Of a DNA stretch of 43,287 nucleotides, positions 65-43,090 are shown one piece after another (position 1 is the first letter of the stretch; every line of letters begins with the position of its first letter). The notes under the pieces are model-generated. The model saw only the letters and a program-made list of their open reading frames with translations, ran no database searches and was not told where the DNA came from. The stretch covers positions 1 through 43,287 of the forward strand of contig JACPVC010000100.1 of NCBI GenBank assembly GCA_016191955.1, in the 5' to 3' direction. The position numbers and the translations under genes were made by a program. Origin of the DNA: Chloroflexota bacterium (GTDB lineage Bacteria; Chloroflexota; Anaerolineae; Anaerolineales; Villigracilaceae).

Positions 65-1246
65 ATGCGTACGAAGAATTTTGCTTATCATATACTCGCC
101 CTGTTCGTGATCGCCGCCACGTTGTTATCTGCGTGCGGTGGTGGGGCTGCAACCGAAGCGCCCGCCATGACTGAAGCTGCCACTGAAGCAGCGGCAACCG
201 AAGCCGCTACTGAAGCTGCTGCTGACCCCATGGCAGATTTGATCGCTGCCGCCCAGGCTGAAGGTATGCTCAGCACCATTGCTTTGCCCCATGACTGGTG
301 CAATTATGGTGAAGCTATTGAAACCTTCAAGACGAAATATGGCATCGAAGTCAACGAACTTAACCCCGACGCCGGTTCTGGTGATGAGATCGAAGCCATT
401 AAAGCGAACAAGGACAATACCGGTCCTCAGGCTCCTGATGTGATCGACGTGGGTTTTGCTTTCGGAGAATCCTCCAAGGCTGAAGGTTTGATCCAGCCTT
501 ACAAGGTTTCCACCTGGGATAGCATCCCCGATGATGCCAAAGATGCCGAAGGTTACTGGTACGGCGATTACTACGGCGTGTTGTCCTTCCTCGTGAACAC
601 CGACGTTCAGCCGGATGTTCCTGCTGACTGGGCTGACCTTCTTGATCCGAAATACAATGGACAGGTTGCGCTCTCTGGCGATCCCCGTACTTCCAATCAG
701 GCGATTCAATCTGTGTTCGCTGCTGCGCTTGCCAATGGCGGCTCATTGGATGATGCCCAGCCCGGTCTTGACTTCTTTGCTGAGTTGAATGCTGCCGGCA
801 ACCTTGTTCCTTTGATTGCCAATAATGGTTTGGTTGCCACCGGTGAAACTGCCGTTCGCATTACCTGGGACTACAATGCTCTCGCCGCTGTGGATTCCTT
901 CGAAGGCAATCCCAAGGCTGAGGTCGTTATCCCTGCGACTGGCCGCTTCGCTGGCGTGTATGTTCAGGCGATCAGCGCATATGCTCCGCACCCCAATGCT
1001 GCCAAGTTGTGGATGGAATTCCTCTATTCCGACGAAGGCCAGACCATTTGGATGAAGGGCTACTGCCATCCGATCCGTGAAGCGGATATGCGCGAACGCG
1101 GCGTTATCCCCGCTGACTTGCTTGCCAAGTTGCCCGATGTCTCCGGCGCAGTCTTCCCCACACTCGACCAGCTCAACGCTGCCAAGGAACTGATCGTTGC
1201 GAATTGGGACAGCACCGTTGGTGCCGACGTTCAAGCTGCTCCGTAA
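65..1246 (+). CDS. ABC transporter substrate-binding lipoprotein (extracellular solute-binding, Fe3+/polyamine/phosphonate-type)
   Basis: Signal peptide with lipobox LLSAC, ATEA-rich linker, solute-binding-like body; followed by two permeases and an ATPase. Confidence 0.88.
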   Translation: MRTKNFAYHILALFVIAATLLSACGGGAATEAPAMTEAATEAAATEAATEAAADPMADLIAAAQAEGMLSTIALPHDWCNYGEAIETFKTKYGIEVNELNPDAGSGDEIEAIKANKDNTGPQAPDVIDVGFAFGESSKAEGLIQPYKVSTWDSIPDDAKDAEGYWYGDYYGVLSFLVNTDVQPDVPADWADLLDPKYNGQVALSGDPRTSNQAIQSVFAAALANGGSLDDAQPGLDFFAELNAAGNLVPLIANNGLVATGETAVRITWDYNALAAVDSFEGNPKAEVVIPATGRFAGVYVQAISAYAPHPNAAKLWMEFLYSDEGQTIWMKGYCHPIREADMRERGVIPADLLAKLPDVSGAVFPTLDQLNAAKELIVANWDSTVGADVQAAP

Positions 1247-1270
1247 GAGTATGATTTTGGTGTAATAATG

Positions 1271-1298
1271 CGAGACCCTGCCATTTGGCAGGGTCTCG
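1271..1298 (+). terminator. Intrinsic terminator/attenuator hairpin between substrate-binding and permease genes
   Basis: CGAGACCCTGCCA-TT-TGGCAGGGTCTCG perfect stem, 25 bp after the stop codon; no long T-run. Confidence 0.6.
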
Positions 1299-1364
1299 TC
1301 ATAGCAAGTGATCGCGTTCGTTGCGTAAATTTCTGAACTTTAAGTGCAAAATATAAGTATATAA

Positions 1365-1453
1365 CTCACCTTGCGTGATTTGTCGTAGGGGCGACCCGTC
1401 GAAATAGCAGGAGGCCCCGTTGCGCAAGGGGAGGGTCGCCCTGTATGCGAAGA
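1365..1453. repeat. Degenerate palindromic element: CTCACCTTGCGTG left end, GTAGGGGCGACCC core
   Basis: Left end resembles the CTCACCTTACGCA terminal repeat; internal GTAGGGGCGACCC / GGGTCGCCC inverted repeat; right end TGCGAAGAGGT degenerate. Confidence 0.5.
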
Positions 1454-1464
1454 GGTAATTGATT

Positions 1465-2355
1465 ATGGCTCAAACTGCTCTGAACCCTAAAAGTTCACTC
1501 CCTGCTTCTGGTTGGAAAAACTGGATCGGCGTTCTTCCATTTTTCCTGTTTGCTGTGCTTTTTCTTGTTTTACCCTCTCTGCGCCTCGTCATGGGTAGTT
1601 TCGCCGATAATGAAGGTCAATTTACGTTTGCAAATATTCTCCAGTTGTTTCAGGAACAATCCATTCTTGACGCCTATTGGTTGAGTATTCGCATCAGTGC
1701 AGCCACGGCGCTTGGTGGCGGAATTTTCGGCTTCCTGCTGGCGTATTCTGTTACGGTTGGCGGTTTGCCGAAGCCTTTACGTTCTGCATTGATCACATTT
1801 TCCGGCGTTGCTTCAAACTTTGCAGGCGTTCCGCTTGCTTTCGCATTCATTGCCACGCTTGGGCGCACGGGTTTTGTCACTGCGCTTATCAAGAACTTAT
1901 TTGGCGTAAATTTATATCAACAAACGGATTTTGACCTGTATAGTTTCTGGGGGTTGAGCCTGACATACATGTATTTTCAATTTCCGCTCATGGTGTTGAT
2001 CATGGCTCCCGCCCTGGACGGACTAAAACGGGAATGGCGTGAAGCGGCTGAAAATTTGGGCGCAAGCAACGCTCAATATTGGCTGAAGGTTGCTTTCCCG
2101 GTATTGCTTCCGTCCCTTCTTGGTTCGATGATCCTGTTGTTCGGTAATGCATTTGGTGCGTATGCGACTGCATATGCTCTCACAGGTGGAAGGCTGGGAA
2201 TTATCACTATTCAAATCGGCGCCCAAATCCGCGGCGATGTTCTGCATAATCCGGGGTTGGGATATGCCATGGCAATGGGCATGGTGGTTATTATGGCGAT
2301 TTCATTAATGGGGTATTCCTGGCTCCAGAAACGTTCCGAAAGGTGGCTGCGATGA
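1465..2355 (+). CDS. ABC transporter permease
   Basis: Multiple TM segments, EAA-like motif EWREAAENLGAS; ATG at 1465 (ORF track uses TTG 1459). Confidence 0.88.
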   Translation: MAQTALNPKSSLPASGWKNWIGVLPFFLFAVLFLVLPSLRLVMGSFADNEGQFTFANILQLFQEQSILDAYWLSIRISAATALGGGIFGFLLAYSVTVGGLPKPLRSALITFSGVASNFAGVPLAFAFIATLGRTGFVTALIKNLFGVNLYQQTDFDLYSFWGLSLTYMYFQFPLMVLIMAPALDGLKREWREAAENLGASNAQYWLKVAFPVLLPSLLGSMILLFGNAFGAYATAYALTGGRLGIITIQIGAQIRGDVLHNPGLGYAMAMGMVVIMAISLMGYSWLQKRSERWLR

Positions 2356-5680: not shown

Positions 5681-5900
5681 AATATTTCTCCTCTAAAGTG
5701 ATTTTTCAAGCAGTGACAAATGTTTTGCCAGCGTCAGTCTTGCGGAAACTTCGATCTCCGCAAACATTATTTCATGGTTGCCGCTTGCCAACATTTCCTC
5801 AAATGTAGCACGGGGACGTAAACCGAAGATTAAAGTGACCTATAATGAAATGTTTCAGAAGCCAGCGCGCGCCTTGTGCAAGCAAAACATGCCATGTAAT

Positions 5901-6012
5901 ATGCTCCCAGCGCCGTCCTCGGCGCGGGATTTCCCTCATAAAACGCCGCCGTCCACAGGATGCTTCGCAAAGGACGGCGGCTTGAGCAGAGATGCTGACA
6001 ACCTTTACTTGC
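5901..6012. repeat. Structured intergenic repeat sharing a core with 17177..17317 and 41808..41929
   Basis: 46 nt (5942..5987) identical to 17243..17288; GCGCC-GTCCTC-GGCGC hairpin. Confidence 0.75.
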
Positions 6013-6053
6013 ACACTTGTATCGAGACTTTAACAAGAAAAATTTTGATGCCT

Positions 6054-7535
6054 TTATACTTTCAAATCATCCATGATCCGTTGCGCAGACTGGCGGCCCG
6101 AAACCATGGCAGTCGGCATGCCGGTGCCGGGGCGGGTGCTGGCACCGGTGAAATATAAGTTGTGATAGTGCCGGTGTTGAAAATCGGGGCGGAAATATCC
6201 CAACTGCGTCAAGTTATGACACAGCCCATGTGTGGAACCTTTCATCAAGTTATATCGTTTGCGCCACGATGGCGGGGTGAAATTGATCTCAAATTTGATG
6301 TGTGATTCGAGATCGTTAATTCCCAAAGACGACAGGCGGCGGAAAACATGCCCGCGCGCCTTATCCCTTAATTCTACCCAATCTTGCTCGCCATTTTCGG
6401 ATATATGTCCAACAGGGACAATCGCGATTAAAGTATCCTGTCTGCTCGGAGCCATGGCTGGGTCGAGTCGCGCCGGGGCATGGATGTAAAGGCTTGGGTT
6501 GGCTGGCAGGCTCAGGTCACGAATGATGCTTGCGAAGTTTTCGCGATAGTCGCTTGCAAGAAAGAGAGTGTGAGGAGCAAGCGATTCATATGATTTATCC
6601 AATCCCCAAAAGAAACTAACGACTGAACATGAAAACCGCTTGTGAGCGAGTTTTTCCGCCTGCCCATCTTGTGGAAGCAGGTTTTGATAAACATAGGGAA
6701 GGTCGGCATTGGCAAGGACTGCGTCTGCCTCTCGTAACTGACCATTGACCATGACCCCGCGCGCGGAATTGCCATTGACGTCGATCTGCTCGACTGGAGT
6801 ATCAAAAATAAATTCCACGCCTGCATCGATGGCGAGTTTCGTGAGTGCTTCAACCACACTATACATGCCGCCTTTTGGATACCAAACTCCGTGCGCCAGT
6901 TCGGTATAAGGCATCATGGAGAAAGTAGCAGGCGCTTCAAAAGGACTCAACCCCATATAAACATCCTGAAACGTAAATGCGGCTTTGAGGCGTGGATCGT
7001 CGAAGTAGTTCGACATATTGGCGTAGTGTTTTGCCAACGGTTTAACTTGATAAACCAGGGGAAGGTTGCTGAGCTTGAAAAAATCAGCAGCCTTACGGAA
7101 ATCGGGTTGAACCAATTTTTCGATGCCGAGATGATAGTGACGATGTCCCTCGTCCATGTAACGCAGGAGACCTTGAAAACTTCCATACTCGAACGAGTCA
7201 AGCTGCTCCTGCAAGGATTTCATGTCAGATGTGAGCGCAAGCTGGCTGCCATCGTCGAAGATCAGATGATAGGTAGGGTCAACTCGTTGTAAATCCAACA
7301 TGTTGTTTAAGGAAGTTCCCAGTGCCGCAAATTCCGCTTCGTAGAGCAATGGCATGACCAGCAAGGTGGGGCCTGTGTCGAAATGATGCCCGTCGCGGCT
7401 GATGCGGTCACAACGCCCTCCGGGGCGTTGGTTCTTTTCGATCACGGTTACTTTAATTCCATGTTGGGCAAGGTGAGTTGCGGCAACAAGCCCGCCAATA
7501 CCGGCACCAATCACGATTACTTTTTTTGCGTTCAT
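6054..7535 (-). CDS. crtI: Phytoene desaturase / CrtI-type FAD-dependent oxidoreductase
   Basis: N-terminal GAGIGGLVAATHLAQHGIKVTVIEK, GGRCDRISRDGHHFDTGPTLL; C-terminal TGASTRPGTGMPTAMVSGRQSA. Confidence 0.87.
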   Translation of the reverse strand: MNAKKVIVIGAGIGGLVAATHLAQHGIKVTVIEKNQRPGGRCDRISRDGHHFDTGPTLLVMPLLYEAEFAALGTSLNNMLDLQRVDPTYHLIFDDGSQLALTSDMKSLQEQLDSFEYGSFQGLLRYMDEGHRHYHLGIEKLVQPDFRKAADFFKLSNLPLVYQVKPLAKHYANMSNYFDDPRLKAAFTFQDVYMGLSPFEAPATFSMMPYTELAHGVWYPKGGMYSVVEALTKLAIDAGVEFIFDTPVEQIDVNGNSARGVMVNGQLREADAVLANADLPYVYQNLLPQDGQAEKLAHKRFSCSVVSFFWGLDKSYESLAPHTLFLASDYRENFASIIRDLSLPANPSLYIHAPARLDPAMAPSRQDTLIAIVPVGHISENGEQDWVELRDKARGHVFRRLSSLGINDLESHIKFEINFTPPSWRKRYNLMKGSTHGLCHNLTQLGYFRPDFQHRHYHNLYFTGASTRPGTGMPTAMVSGRQSAQRIMDDLKV

Positions 7536-15842: not shown

Positions 15843-17105
15843 CTACAGTTGTATCGCCCATTCACCCTGACGCATCACCGGCTCGCGTTTGCCGTCTTTG
15901 GTGATGCCGTCGATGTCCATTTTCGGAGAGCCGATCATGAAGTCGACGTGGTTGAGGCTGACGTTACCTCCAGCGGCGATAAACTCGTCGTCGTTCAACT
16001 CAGTTCCTCCGGCGAGGGTGAAGCGGTAAGCGCGTCCAATCGCAATATGACAGGAAGCGTTCTCGTCGAAGAGCGTGTTGTAGAAAAGATGTCCGCGTCT
16101 GCCGATGGGGGAGGAGGCGGGGACGAGCGCCACTTCGCCGAGGCGGTGTGAGCCTTCGTCGGTGTCCACCAGTTTTTGGAGGGCGGCTTCACCTTTTTGG
16201 GCAGTGACCTTTGTGATTCGTCCATTCTCAAAGTGGACTTGGAAATCTTCGATCAATGTGCCGCCATAGCTGAGCGGGAACGTGGCAGAGATCACGCCAT
16301 CTGCGCGGTTACGGTCTGGCAGGGTGAAGACTTCTTCGGTGGGCATGTTGGCGGTGAATGCCACGCCGTTCTGCGCCATCGATTGCGCGCTGATCCAGAG
16401 ATGCCCGCTGGGTAAGCCGAGGGTGAAGTCGGTGCCGGGGGCTTTGTAATGCAGGGCGGTGTATTGCTTGGCTTGCAGATATAACGCGCGTTCACGCAGG
16501 GAGGCGATGTGTTTATTCCATGCCGCGATGGGGTCGGGCTGGTCGATGCGGGTGGTCTCGAAGATGGCTTGCCAGAGTTTTTCCTGTGCTTTGTTTACTG
16601 GCAGGTCGGGGAATATCTTGTGCGCCCAGGCTTCACCGGCGGCGGCGACGACGCACCAGTTGATGGCGTTGGTGGTCACCTTCTCGCTGATGGGACTCCA
16701 GTTTTCAAGATGTGCTCGTTGCATTTGCCCGACGACATCTGAGTCCAGCCCGCCTAGTAGGTCAGGGTTGGAGCCGCCGATGGAGAGCAGGGCATCGCCA
16801 TTGCTGACCATATCCAAAACGCCCTGAATCTGCCATTTGGGATATTCTCCAAATGAGCCTTTGGAAGCATGTTGCGCGCGGATGCGCAGCATTTCCTCGT
16901 CGGCAAAGATGGCGTCGACGTATTTTGCGCCTGCGCTGTAGGCAGCCTTTGCGATTTCACGGACCAAGGGAGCAAATTGGTGCGGCACCCCGCGAGTCCC
17001 CGCTGCTGTGATAATCAAGCGCTGCTCAGCGCGGATATTAAGACCTACTTTGACGATGGCTTCGGCGTATTTCGCCAGCATTTCCTGATGTGTGATTCCG
17101 GTCAT
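15843..17105 (-). CDS. Aminopeptidase (M29/AmpS-like)
   Basis: GTDFTLGLPSGHLW, NMPTEEVFTLPDRNRADGVI, ENASCHIAIGRAY, NHVDFMIGSPKMDIDGI. Confidence 0.9.
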   Translation of the reverse strand: MTGITHQEMLAKYAEAIVKVGLNIRAEQRLIITAAGTRGVPHQFAPLVREIAKAAYSAGAKYVDAIFADEEMLRIRAQHASKGSFGEYPKWQIQGVLDMVSNGDALLSIGGSNPDLLGGLDSDVVGQMQRAHLENWSPISEKVTTNAINWCVVAAAGEAWAHKIFPDLPVNKAQEKLWQAIFETTRIDQPDPIAAWNKHIASLRERALYLQAKQYTALHYKAPGTDFTLGLPSGHLWISAQSMAQNGVAFTANMPTEEVFTLPDRNRADGVISATFPLSYGGTLIEDFQVHFENGRITKVTAQKGEAALQKLVDTDEGSHRLGEVALVPASSPIGRRGHLFYNTLFDENASCHIAIGRAYRFTLAGGTELNDDEFIAAGGNVSLNHVDFMIGSPKMDIDGITKDGKREPVMRQGEWAIQL

Positions 17106-17168
17106 AATGCCTCGATATATGAGAGTGCCCCAAGTATAGCACGGGGATGCACACTTTTGCCCTGGTTG

Positions 17169-17325
17169 TGTCCGTTGGGTGCGCTAAAAGTTTGTAGATG
17201 ACCTGCTCCCTTCGCCGTCCTTGGCGAAGGATTTACTCGCAGAACGCCGCCGTCCACAGGATGCTTCGCAAAGGACGGCGGCTTGAGCTAAACTACTAAC
17301 AGACTTTGAGTGCTCCCTGTCCGTT
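17169..17325. mobile_element. MITE-like element, family 2 copy A (element 17177..17317 with 8-bp flanking duplications)
   Basis: Ends GGGTGCGCTAAAAGT / ACTTTGAGTGCTCCC; direct repeat TGTCCGTT at 17169..17176 and 17318..17325. Confidence 0.8.
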
Positions 17326-41222: not shown

Positions 41223-41687
41223 ATGCCCGTTCCTTTCGGCATTTCTGCCCCTGCATTTGAATTGCTCGACGATACAAATACCCCACGTAAACTTTCCGAT
41301 TATCGCGGAAAGAACGTCATCCTCTATTTTTATCCAAAAGATAATACTTCGGGCTGCACAACAGAAGCCTGTAATTTTCGGGATGACTATTCTGCATACG
41401 AGAGGGCAGGGGTGGTGATCCTCGGCGTCAGCCCGGACTCGGTTTCATCCCATACCAAGTTTAAAACGAAGTATCAACTTCAGTTCCCTCTGCTTGCCGA
41501 TGAAGGTCATAAAGTCTGCGATCTTTATGGCGTGTGGGGACCAAAGAAGTTTATGGGCAAGTCTTATGAAGGTGTTCTTCGCACGACCTTCTTGATCGAC
41601 CCCGATGGAATTATCAAAAAAGTTTATGAAGGTGTGCGTCCTGCGGAACACAGCCAGGAATTGCTCTCCGAATTGGGCTTGGCTTAA
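41223..41687 (+). CDS. bcp: Thioredoxin-dependent peroxiredoxin (BCP/PrxQ)
   Basis: VILYFYPKDNTSGCTTEACNFRDDYSAYERAGVVILGVSPDSVSSHTKF. Confidence 0.95.
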   Translation: MPVPFGISAPAFELLDDTNTPRKLSDYRGKNVILYFYPKDNTSGCTTEACNFRDDYSAYERAGVVILGVSPDSVSSHTKFKTKYQLQFPLLADEGHKVCDLYGVWGPKKFMGKSYEGVLRTTFLIDPDGIIKKVYEGVRPAEHSQELLSELGLA

Positions 41688-41799: not shown

Positions 41800-41937
41800 G
41801 TTGAACAGGGAGCACTCAAAGTCTGTTAGTAGTTTGGCTCAAGCCGCCGTCCTCGGCGGCGTTCTGCGAGTAAATCCTTCGCCGAGGACGGCGAAAGGAG
41901 CAGGTCATCTACAAACTTTTAGCGCACCCGTTGAACA
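41800..41937. mobile_element. MITE-like element, family 2 copy B, inverted relative to copy A (element 41808..41929 with 8-bp flanking duplications)
   Basis: Direct repeat GTTGAACA at 41800..41807 and 41930..41937; ends GGGAGCACTCAAAGT / ACTTTTAGCGCACCC; reverse-complement homology to 17177..17317. Confidence 0.84.
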
Positions 41938-42073
41938 AATAATAGTGACAAGGTAAAGGGACTTTGATATAATCCCTGCTTGTGAAAATTGAGACAATTC
42001 ATACGAAATTTGTCCGATTTTAGTTAATCATCGGGGCATCAGCCCCGTTCAATCTTTTGAGGAGAGATAGTCT

Positions 42074-43090
42074 ATGGGCCATTTTGTAATTGTGGGGATC
42101 TTGGTCATCGTCATGACCGTTCTCACGTATCTCGGTCTCGATGCTGCCGGGCTTGCAACGCAAATGAATCCTGTTGCTGCCAGCGCGCAAGCCGCTCCCA
42201 TTGATCAGTTGTGGCATTGGGAAGTGATCGTTGTTTCCTTCCTATTTTCCCTGATCGTTGTACCGATGATGTACAGCCTGGTGGTCTTCCGCCAGAAGAA
42301 AGGGGAGATGAAGGATGGCGAGCATATGGAAGGCAACGCCACCCTTGAGATTGCATGGACGGTTGTACCGCTCATCATCGTGGTGGTTTTTGCATATCTG
42401 GGCGCTTATTCACTCGGTGAAGTCCGCCGGGTGGACCCCAATGCCATGGTCATCAACGTCAGGGCACAGCAATTCACGTGGACGTTCGAATATCCCGAAT
42501 ACGGTTTCATCAGCACCGAACTGCACCTTCCTGTAGATCGACAGGTAGTGCTCAAGATGGAATCGGCGGATGTCATCCACTCATTCTGGGTTCCCGAATT
42601 CCGCGTCAAGCAGGACGTTGTGCCGGGTCGCATCACCGAATATCGCATCACACCGACGCTTGAGGGCAGCTACAAAGTCCGTTGCGCGGAACTTTGTGGT
42701 ACTACTCATGCTTACATGGAAAGTCCCGTGGTTGTGAACAGCCAGGCAGAGTACGATGCCTGGATCGTGGAACAGGTCAAGATCGCGGAAGAATCAAAAA
42801 CCCCCGAGGGGCAAGGTAAAGTTCTCGCCACCAAGTATGGTTGTATTGGTTGTCACTCTGCGGACGGTTCTCCGCTCACCGGTCCTACCTGGTTCAATTT
42901 ATACGGCTCGGATGTGAAACTTGCCGACGGCTCCACCGTGGCCGCCGACGATGCCTTCCTTGCCGAGTCCATTCTCGACCCGAACGCAAAGATCGTTGAA
43001 GGCTTCCCGTCCCCGTCTGTGATGCCTCCCTACGCATTGACCGATGAAGAAATTACAAACCTCATCGCGTACATCAAAACGCTGAAATAG
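42074..43090 (+). CDS. coxB: Cytochrome c oxidase subunit II with C-terminal cytochrome c domain (caa3-type)
   Basis: TM helices, CuA motif VRCAELCGTTHAYM, heme motif GCIGCHSADGSPLTGPTW. Confidence 0.94.
   Translation: MGHFVIVGILVIVMTVLTYLGLDAAGLATQMNPVAASAQAAPIDQLWHWEVIVVSFLFSLIVVPMMYSLVVFRQKKGEMKDGEHMEGNATLEIAWTVVPLIIVVVFAYLGAYSLGEVRRVDPNAMVINVRAQQFTWTFEYPEYGFISTELHLPVDRQVVLKMESADVIHSFWVPEFRVKQDVVPGRITEYRITPTLEGSYKVRCAELCGTTHAYMESPVVVNSQAEYDAWIVEQVKIAEESKTPEGQGKVLATKYGCIGCHSADGSPLTGPTWFNLYGSDVKLADGSTVAADDAFLAESILDPNAKIVEGFPSPSVMPPYALTDEEITNLIAYIKTLK

Follow-up and report, generated by a model that had tools for sequence, protein, structure and literature searches.

Elements of the ISKra4, TnGBS and ISLre2 types are inserted 15–17 bp upstream of −35 boxes (Guerillot et al. 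2014, PMC3942029). Those with near-perfect terminal repeats face promoters from both ends; those with unequal ends are inserted in one orientation (PMC3942029). IS, transposons and ICEs are covered in that paper, in which the term MITE is absent. REP dimers occur regularly within longer inverted repeats in Anabaena variabilis, Halothiobacillus neapolitanus and Thermomicrobium roseum, as described in section 7 of Di Nocera et al. 2013 (PMC3733652; genus names expanded here). MITEs, promoter targeting of the ISKra4 type and REPIN/RAYT systems are each known; the combination found here is new. Beyond section 7 of PMC3733652, no report of a MITE with a REPIN interior, or of a MITE of the ISKra4/ISLre2 group, was found in the literature searched, most subscription papers lying outside its coverage.

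The window (43,287 nucleotides, the whole of contig C54) belongs to a Chloroflexota bacterium of the family Villigracilaceae, of which an assembly of 4.34 Mb in 370 contigs was searched. A 122-bp non-autonomous element with ISKra4-type ends, designated a type A MITE on the basis of its copies, parent IS and duplications, occupies 41808..41929 (+). It starts with GGGAGCACTCAAAG, finishes with TTTTAGCGCACCC and is flanked by an exact 8-bp target-site duplication, GTTGAACA, on the left (41800..41807, +) and on the right (41930..41937, +). The A-end (GGGAGCACTCAAAGTCTGTTAG...; 41808..41836, +) corresponds over its outermost ~22 bp to the end of the parent IS that lies away from the transposase. 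The B-end (in reverse complement, GGGTGCGCTAAAAGTTTGTAGATGACCT; 41902..41929, +) matches the transposase-proximal end of the parent and faces the promoter. Between the ends, at 41837..41901 (+), lies a REPIN composed of GCTC, hairpin 1 (GCCGCCGTCCTCGGCGGC), a spacer, hairpin 2 (TTCGCCGAGGACGGCGAA) and GAGC. A second type A copy, 141 bp in length, is located at 17177..17317 (−) and is the reverse complement of the first. Its target-site duplication is TGTCCGTT (17169..17176 and 17318..17325, both +). The 19-bp difference in size between the two copies is sequence added at one internal hairpin tip; in copy 2, hairpin 1 is extended at its tip by the loop sequence TTTGCGAAGCATCCTGTGGAC (17252..17272, −). 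The original prediction, made from the letters of the window, of an element at 41808..41929 with an exact 8-bp flanking duplication agrees with these results to the base, and its account of 17177..17317 as an oppositely oriented homologue with a different exact duplication is confirmed. Promoter-directed insertion, the probable ISKra4 parent and the recognition of the interior as a separate REPIN go beyond it.

The repeat is far above chance in its own genome, with 43 matches at E ≤ 0.01, of which ~30 are recognisable element copies. Two main size forms are present, 122 bp and 141 bp, the longer with TTTGCGAAGCATCCTGTGGAC at the first internal hairpin tip; in a few copies the other hairpin is also extended at its tip. 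Element sizes are typically 87–165 bp. Both flanks are readable in 21 own copies: 13 have exact duplications of 8–9 bp, three match at 7 of 8 positions, and five have no clean duplication. The duplications of the 16 copies with exact or one-mismatch repeats all differ. Several further copies end at contig edges, which indicates that the assembly breaks at this repeat. Short (122–141 bp), non-coding, with inverted ends and ~30 dispersed copies, the element has the characters of a MITE, including a target-site duplication of fixed length (8–9 bp, exact or with one mismatch in 16/21) and autonomous relatives with the same ends in two sister genomes (L147 and L149, both decayed). Mobility, as originally predicted, is upheld by the ~30 copies, their differing duplications, a parent IS that shares these ends, and the absence of the element upstream of coxB in at least four relatives.

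A pattern search for type A ends in 57 genomes of the genus gave 20 positive genomes. A transposase lies between or beside such ends at two loci. The element of L147 (G003) covers ~742–1984 and has such an end on either side, its transposase being broken into two; of that in L149 (G024), a single end is left along with the N-terminal portion of the transposase. Both transposases give a match to the ISKra4 model of NCBIfam (E 1e-21 and 9e-18), and ISKra4 is the best match of the parent transposase halves, each half scoring under the NCBIfam cut-off. The MITE has in common with the parent IS ~28 bp of the transposase-proximal end and ~22 bp of the other; the rest is replaced. Because its termini are those of a probable ISKra4-family IS in two sister genomes, the element is assigned as a putative ISKra4-derived MITE. 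Its inverted ends and duplication are within the range of p-MULT4 elements (18–39 bp and 8–9 bp, respectively). A related intact IS, L162 (G008), encodes a transposase of 463 aa (228.5 bits versus the ISKra4 cut-off of 205), 36% identical to that of L149. It is flanked by a 9-bp duplication, CCATAAGCA, and its ends, GTGTGCACGCAAAGG, match those of the type C MITEs described below. An intact type A transposase was found nowhere, the copies of the two relatives being decayed or truncated. No remnant of it was found in the own genome, in which a type C IS end and a C-terminal fragment are present at contig edges.

Two other assignments were considered and rejected. The ISMich2 subgroup, characterized by a two-ORF transposase, was initially favoured because L147 has two ORFs; the split looks like a small deletion against L149, and L162 has a single ORF. 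The ISL3 family was considered as mobiliser because an ISL3 element sits between type A ends in L138 (G067). The ends of that element are different from those of type A, and within the MITE it is flanked by a separate 8-bp duplication, CAAACTTT; it is therefore a nested passenger. A type C MITE is adjacent to it, so that L138 holds three mobile elements at ~655..2225.

Promoters were scored at all distinct junctions fetched, a −10 box being TATAAT-like with one mismatch allowed and TA...T kept. Such a box lies 36–40 nt from the B-end (GCGCACCC) in 38/71 junctions, with a sharp peak at 38 nt, and at the same distance from the A-end in only 6/62. Random window positions have one in 0.7% of cases (binomial p ~1e-62, the junctions being not fully independent, since elements and genomes are related, and the insertion sites being different). 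In the own genome alone the counts are 19/28 for the B-end versus 1/30 for the A-end. By this simple motif, about half of all junctions and 9/28 of those in the own genome are without a −10 box at the expected spacing. The −35 boxes at junctions are weak. Copy 2 faces a −10-like TATACT (17133..17138, −), counted by hand as 38 nt from its B-end, upstream of the gene at 15843..17105 (−). A third MITE of the window, at 5874..6016 (−), is of type C, with GTGTGCAAGC-like ends, the same REPIN and the same hairpin-1 loop extension. It has no clear duplication; TATACT at 6055..6060 is exactly 38 nt off (counted by hand). In type C elements, which have almost identical ends, promoters are found on both sides, at 7/30 junctions of one end and 7/19 of the other. 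Both expectations from PMC3942029 are thus matched, insertion being oriented in the unequal-ended type A and bidirectional in the near-identical-ended type C. Insertion 13–17 nt upstream of a sigma70-type −35 box, oriented when the ends differ, is a character of p-MULT4 elements with which the element agrees.

The gene downstream of the first copy is coxB (42074..43090, +), named from its translation as cytochrome c oxidase subunit II with a C-terminal cytochrome c domain. The gene order is a peroxiredoxin-like gene (41223..41687), the element and coxB. The coxB promoter has its −35 box (GTGACA) at 41945..41950 (+), 15 nt from the element, and its −10 box (TATAAT) at 41968..41973 (+), 38 nt from it. 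The region is conserved in the genus, being matched in 55/57 genomes. Four relatives aligned in detail (G014, G042, G045 and G063) have the same two genes and lack the element; this comparison of the coxB upstream site, proposed with the original prediction, therefore supports insertion. The promoter GTGACA-17-TATAAT is conserved in these four and in many more relatives, and is therefore older than the insertion. The coxB promoter is a recurrent target: in L219 (G017) another element of this general kind, itself diverged, is present at nearly the same position, 17 nt from the −35 box. Judged by its position, the element should leave coxB intact. Possible effects are a shielding of the coxB promoter by the REPIN hairpins from transcripts of the upstream gene and a change in promoter strength by the element end. 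No terminator-like T run was found.

The interior is made up of two inverted hairpins, each with a GCTC tag, which is the structure of a REPIN. Its 66-bp core is common to MITE types A, C and B, the last with TTCTCTACCGTAC ends and 8-bp duplications, and also occurs free, without any such MITE ends. Type B elements, with these ends and duplications around the same REPIN, are present in L035 and L036. Seven Y1 transposase genes are present in the own genome. One of them, on contig C4, encodes 202 aa, scores 70.9 bits with the NCBIfam REP-associated tyrosine transposase model, just under its cut-off of 80, and has GCTC-tagged hairpins of the same sequence type on both sides. A matching REP hairpin is located beside 11/11 close RAYT homologues of the genus (59–100% identical, own included). 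The distant Y1 transposases examined are mostly without such hairpins; in the exceptions (L178, L131) the hairpins differ in sequence or lie farther away. The REPIN core is present in 11/11 RAYT-positive genomes versus 20/46 others (hypergeometric p ~5e-4, by hand). Given the GCTC hairpins at RAYT genes and this co-occurrence, the interior would, on sequence, be the substrate of a different transposase. The GTAG tag of the classical REP superfamily is replaced here by GCTC. A RAYT gene with flanking REPs tagged GCTC instead of GTAG is seen in L137 (1219..1827). The GCTC-tagged REPs may represent a new class of REP in Chloroflexota.

At the REPIN hairpin tips of L020, L025, L129, L138 and L148, no fewer than four kinds of loop extension occur in one and the same position, and sometimes the two hairpins of an element have matching extensions. 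A duplicated target is not expected from RAYT-type transposition. Direct repeats of 11–15 bp lie a few bases away from the free REPINs of L038 (1027–1092), L124 (317–380) and L210 (120–199; all positions strand-adjusted), and also from that of L213. Repeats of ≥11 bp were found at 3/21 free REPINs and at none of ~1000 permuted flank pairs.

The element is with high probability a MITE with a REPIN interior, moved by an ISKra4 transposase and inserted upstream of promoters with its B-end facing the promoter. An ISKra4-family transposase (Mutator-like, DDE) would move the MITE in trans, the latter retaining ~28 bp of one IS end and ~22–29 bp of the other. Enclosed by these ends would be an entire REPIN, presumably captured by the MITE; the double hairpin of the REPIN would serve an unrelated HUH (RAYT) transposase as substrate. 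Insertion would occur with a duplication of 8–9 bp, ~15 nt upstream of a sigma70-type −35 box, the transposase probably contacting the promoter or its polymerase. The B-end (GCGCACCC) would adjoin the promoter because the two ends are unequal. Being directed upstream of promoters, the MITE would land beside genes without breaking them, as at coxB. Types A and C agree in the distance between each end and the REPIN (29 bp on one side), and their IS are homologous; the simplest reading is therefore a single REPIN capture ancestral to both types, followed by divergence with two IS lineages. Type B would be a second REPIN capture. In the own genome, type A as well as type C elements are found with the hairpin-1 loop extension, which suggests exchange between elements.

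A very improbable reading is that RAYT alone moves the full 122 bp as a long REPIN or BIME, the outer arms being part of a larger palindrome targeted by REPs. The interior is a true REPIN and palindromes with REP dimers inside them have been described (PMC3733652), but the outer arms correspond to the ends of an IS with a transposase, carry duplications of 8–9 bp and also surround REPIN-free interiors (L153, L244), and free REPINs occur without these arms. Survivorship alone, by which genic insertions are lost and the remainder is intergenic and near promoters, is unlikely to a similar degree: both window copies are outside genes, yet it would not fix a distance of 38 nt or an orientation, and the −10 counts peak only at 36–40 nt and mainly at the B-end. 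It is extremely unlikely that the pair of window copies recombines to invert the intervening 24.6 kb, a possibility put forward in the original prediction. The copies are inverted and homologous; however, their longest exact common stretch is 33 bp, and ~30 other copies would be equally eligible, so the pair is unremarkable and the inversion is unsupported. In the assembled sequence no inverted arrangement was seen.

If the element is such an ISKra4-moved MITE, promoter-directed oriented insertion, previously described for Mutator-like IS, transposons and conjugative elements, extends to a tiny MITE with dozens of copies, and the promoter distance at junctions can therefore be read as a family signature. 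Two kinds of bacterial repeats usually handled separately, MITEs and REPINs, are linked. Older reports of REP dimers in palindromes may be open to re-reading, as some of these palindromes may be IS ends. Doubtful, though worth stating, is a lasting alliance of MITE and REPIN in one composite element, recognised by two unrelated enzymes (a DDE and an HUH transposase): the promoter targeting of the one would repeatedly bring the REPIN of the other to the upstream edge of promoters, and the hairpins may shield these from transcription coming from upstream. The presence of one REPIN core in three MITE types would in that case reflect repeated selection rather than chance.

Like ordinary bacterial MITEs (RUP, NEMIS, ERIC and similar), the element is short, non-coding and multicopy, with IS-like ends; unlike them, it has as its interior the mobile element of a second family, common to several MITE types. 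The palindromes of PMC3733652 likewise contain REP dimers, and one is GGG...CCC-ended; in section 7 of that paper they are read as targets, and no IS parent, duplication or promoter spacing is reported in that section. With REPIN/RAYT systems (Bertels and Rainey 2011, PMC3116915; Nunvar et al. 2010, PMC2817692) the interior has in common two inverted REP hairpins, a tag at the foot and matching REPs flanking the RAYT gene; it differs in the tag, GCTC instead of GTAG, and in the location of many copies inside DDE-type MITEs. Closest are the ISKra4/p-MULT4 IS, TnGBS and ISLre2 (PMC3942029), with a probably related transposase, duplications of 8–9 bp, a distance of ~15 nt from the −35 box and the same rules of orientation. 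In contrast to these, the element described here is non-autonomous, and a REPIN takes the place of the transposase gene.
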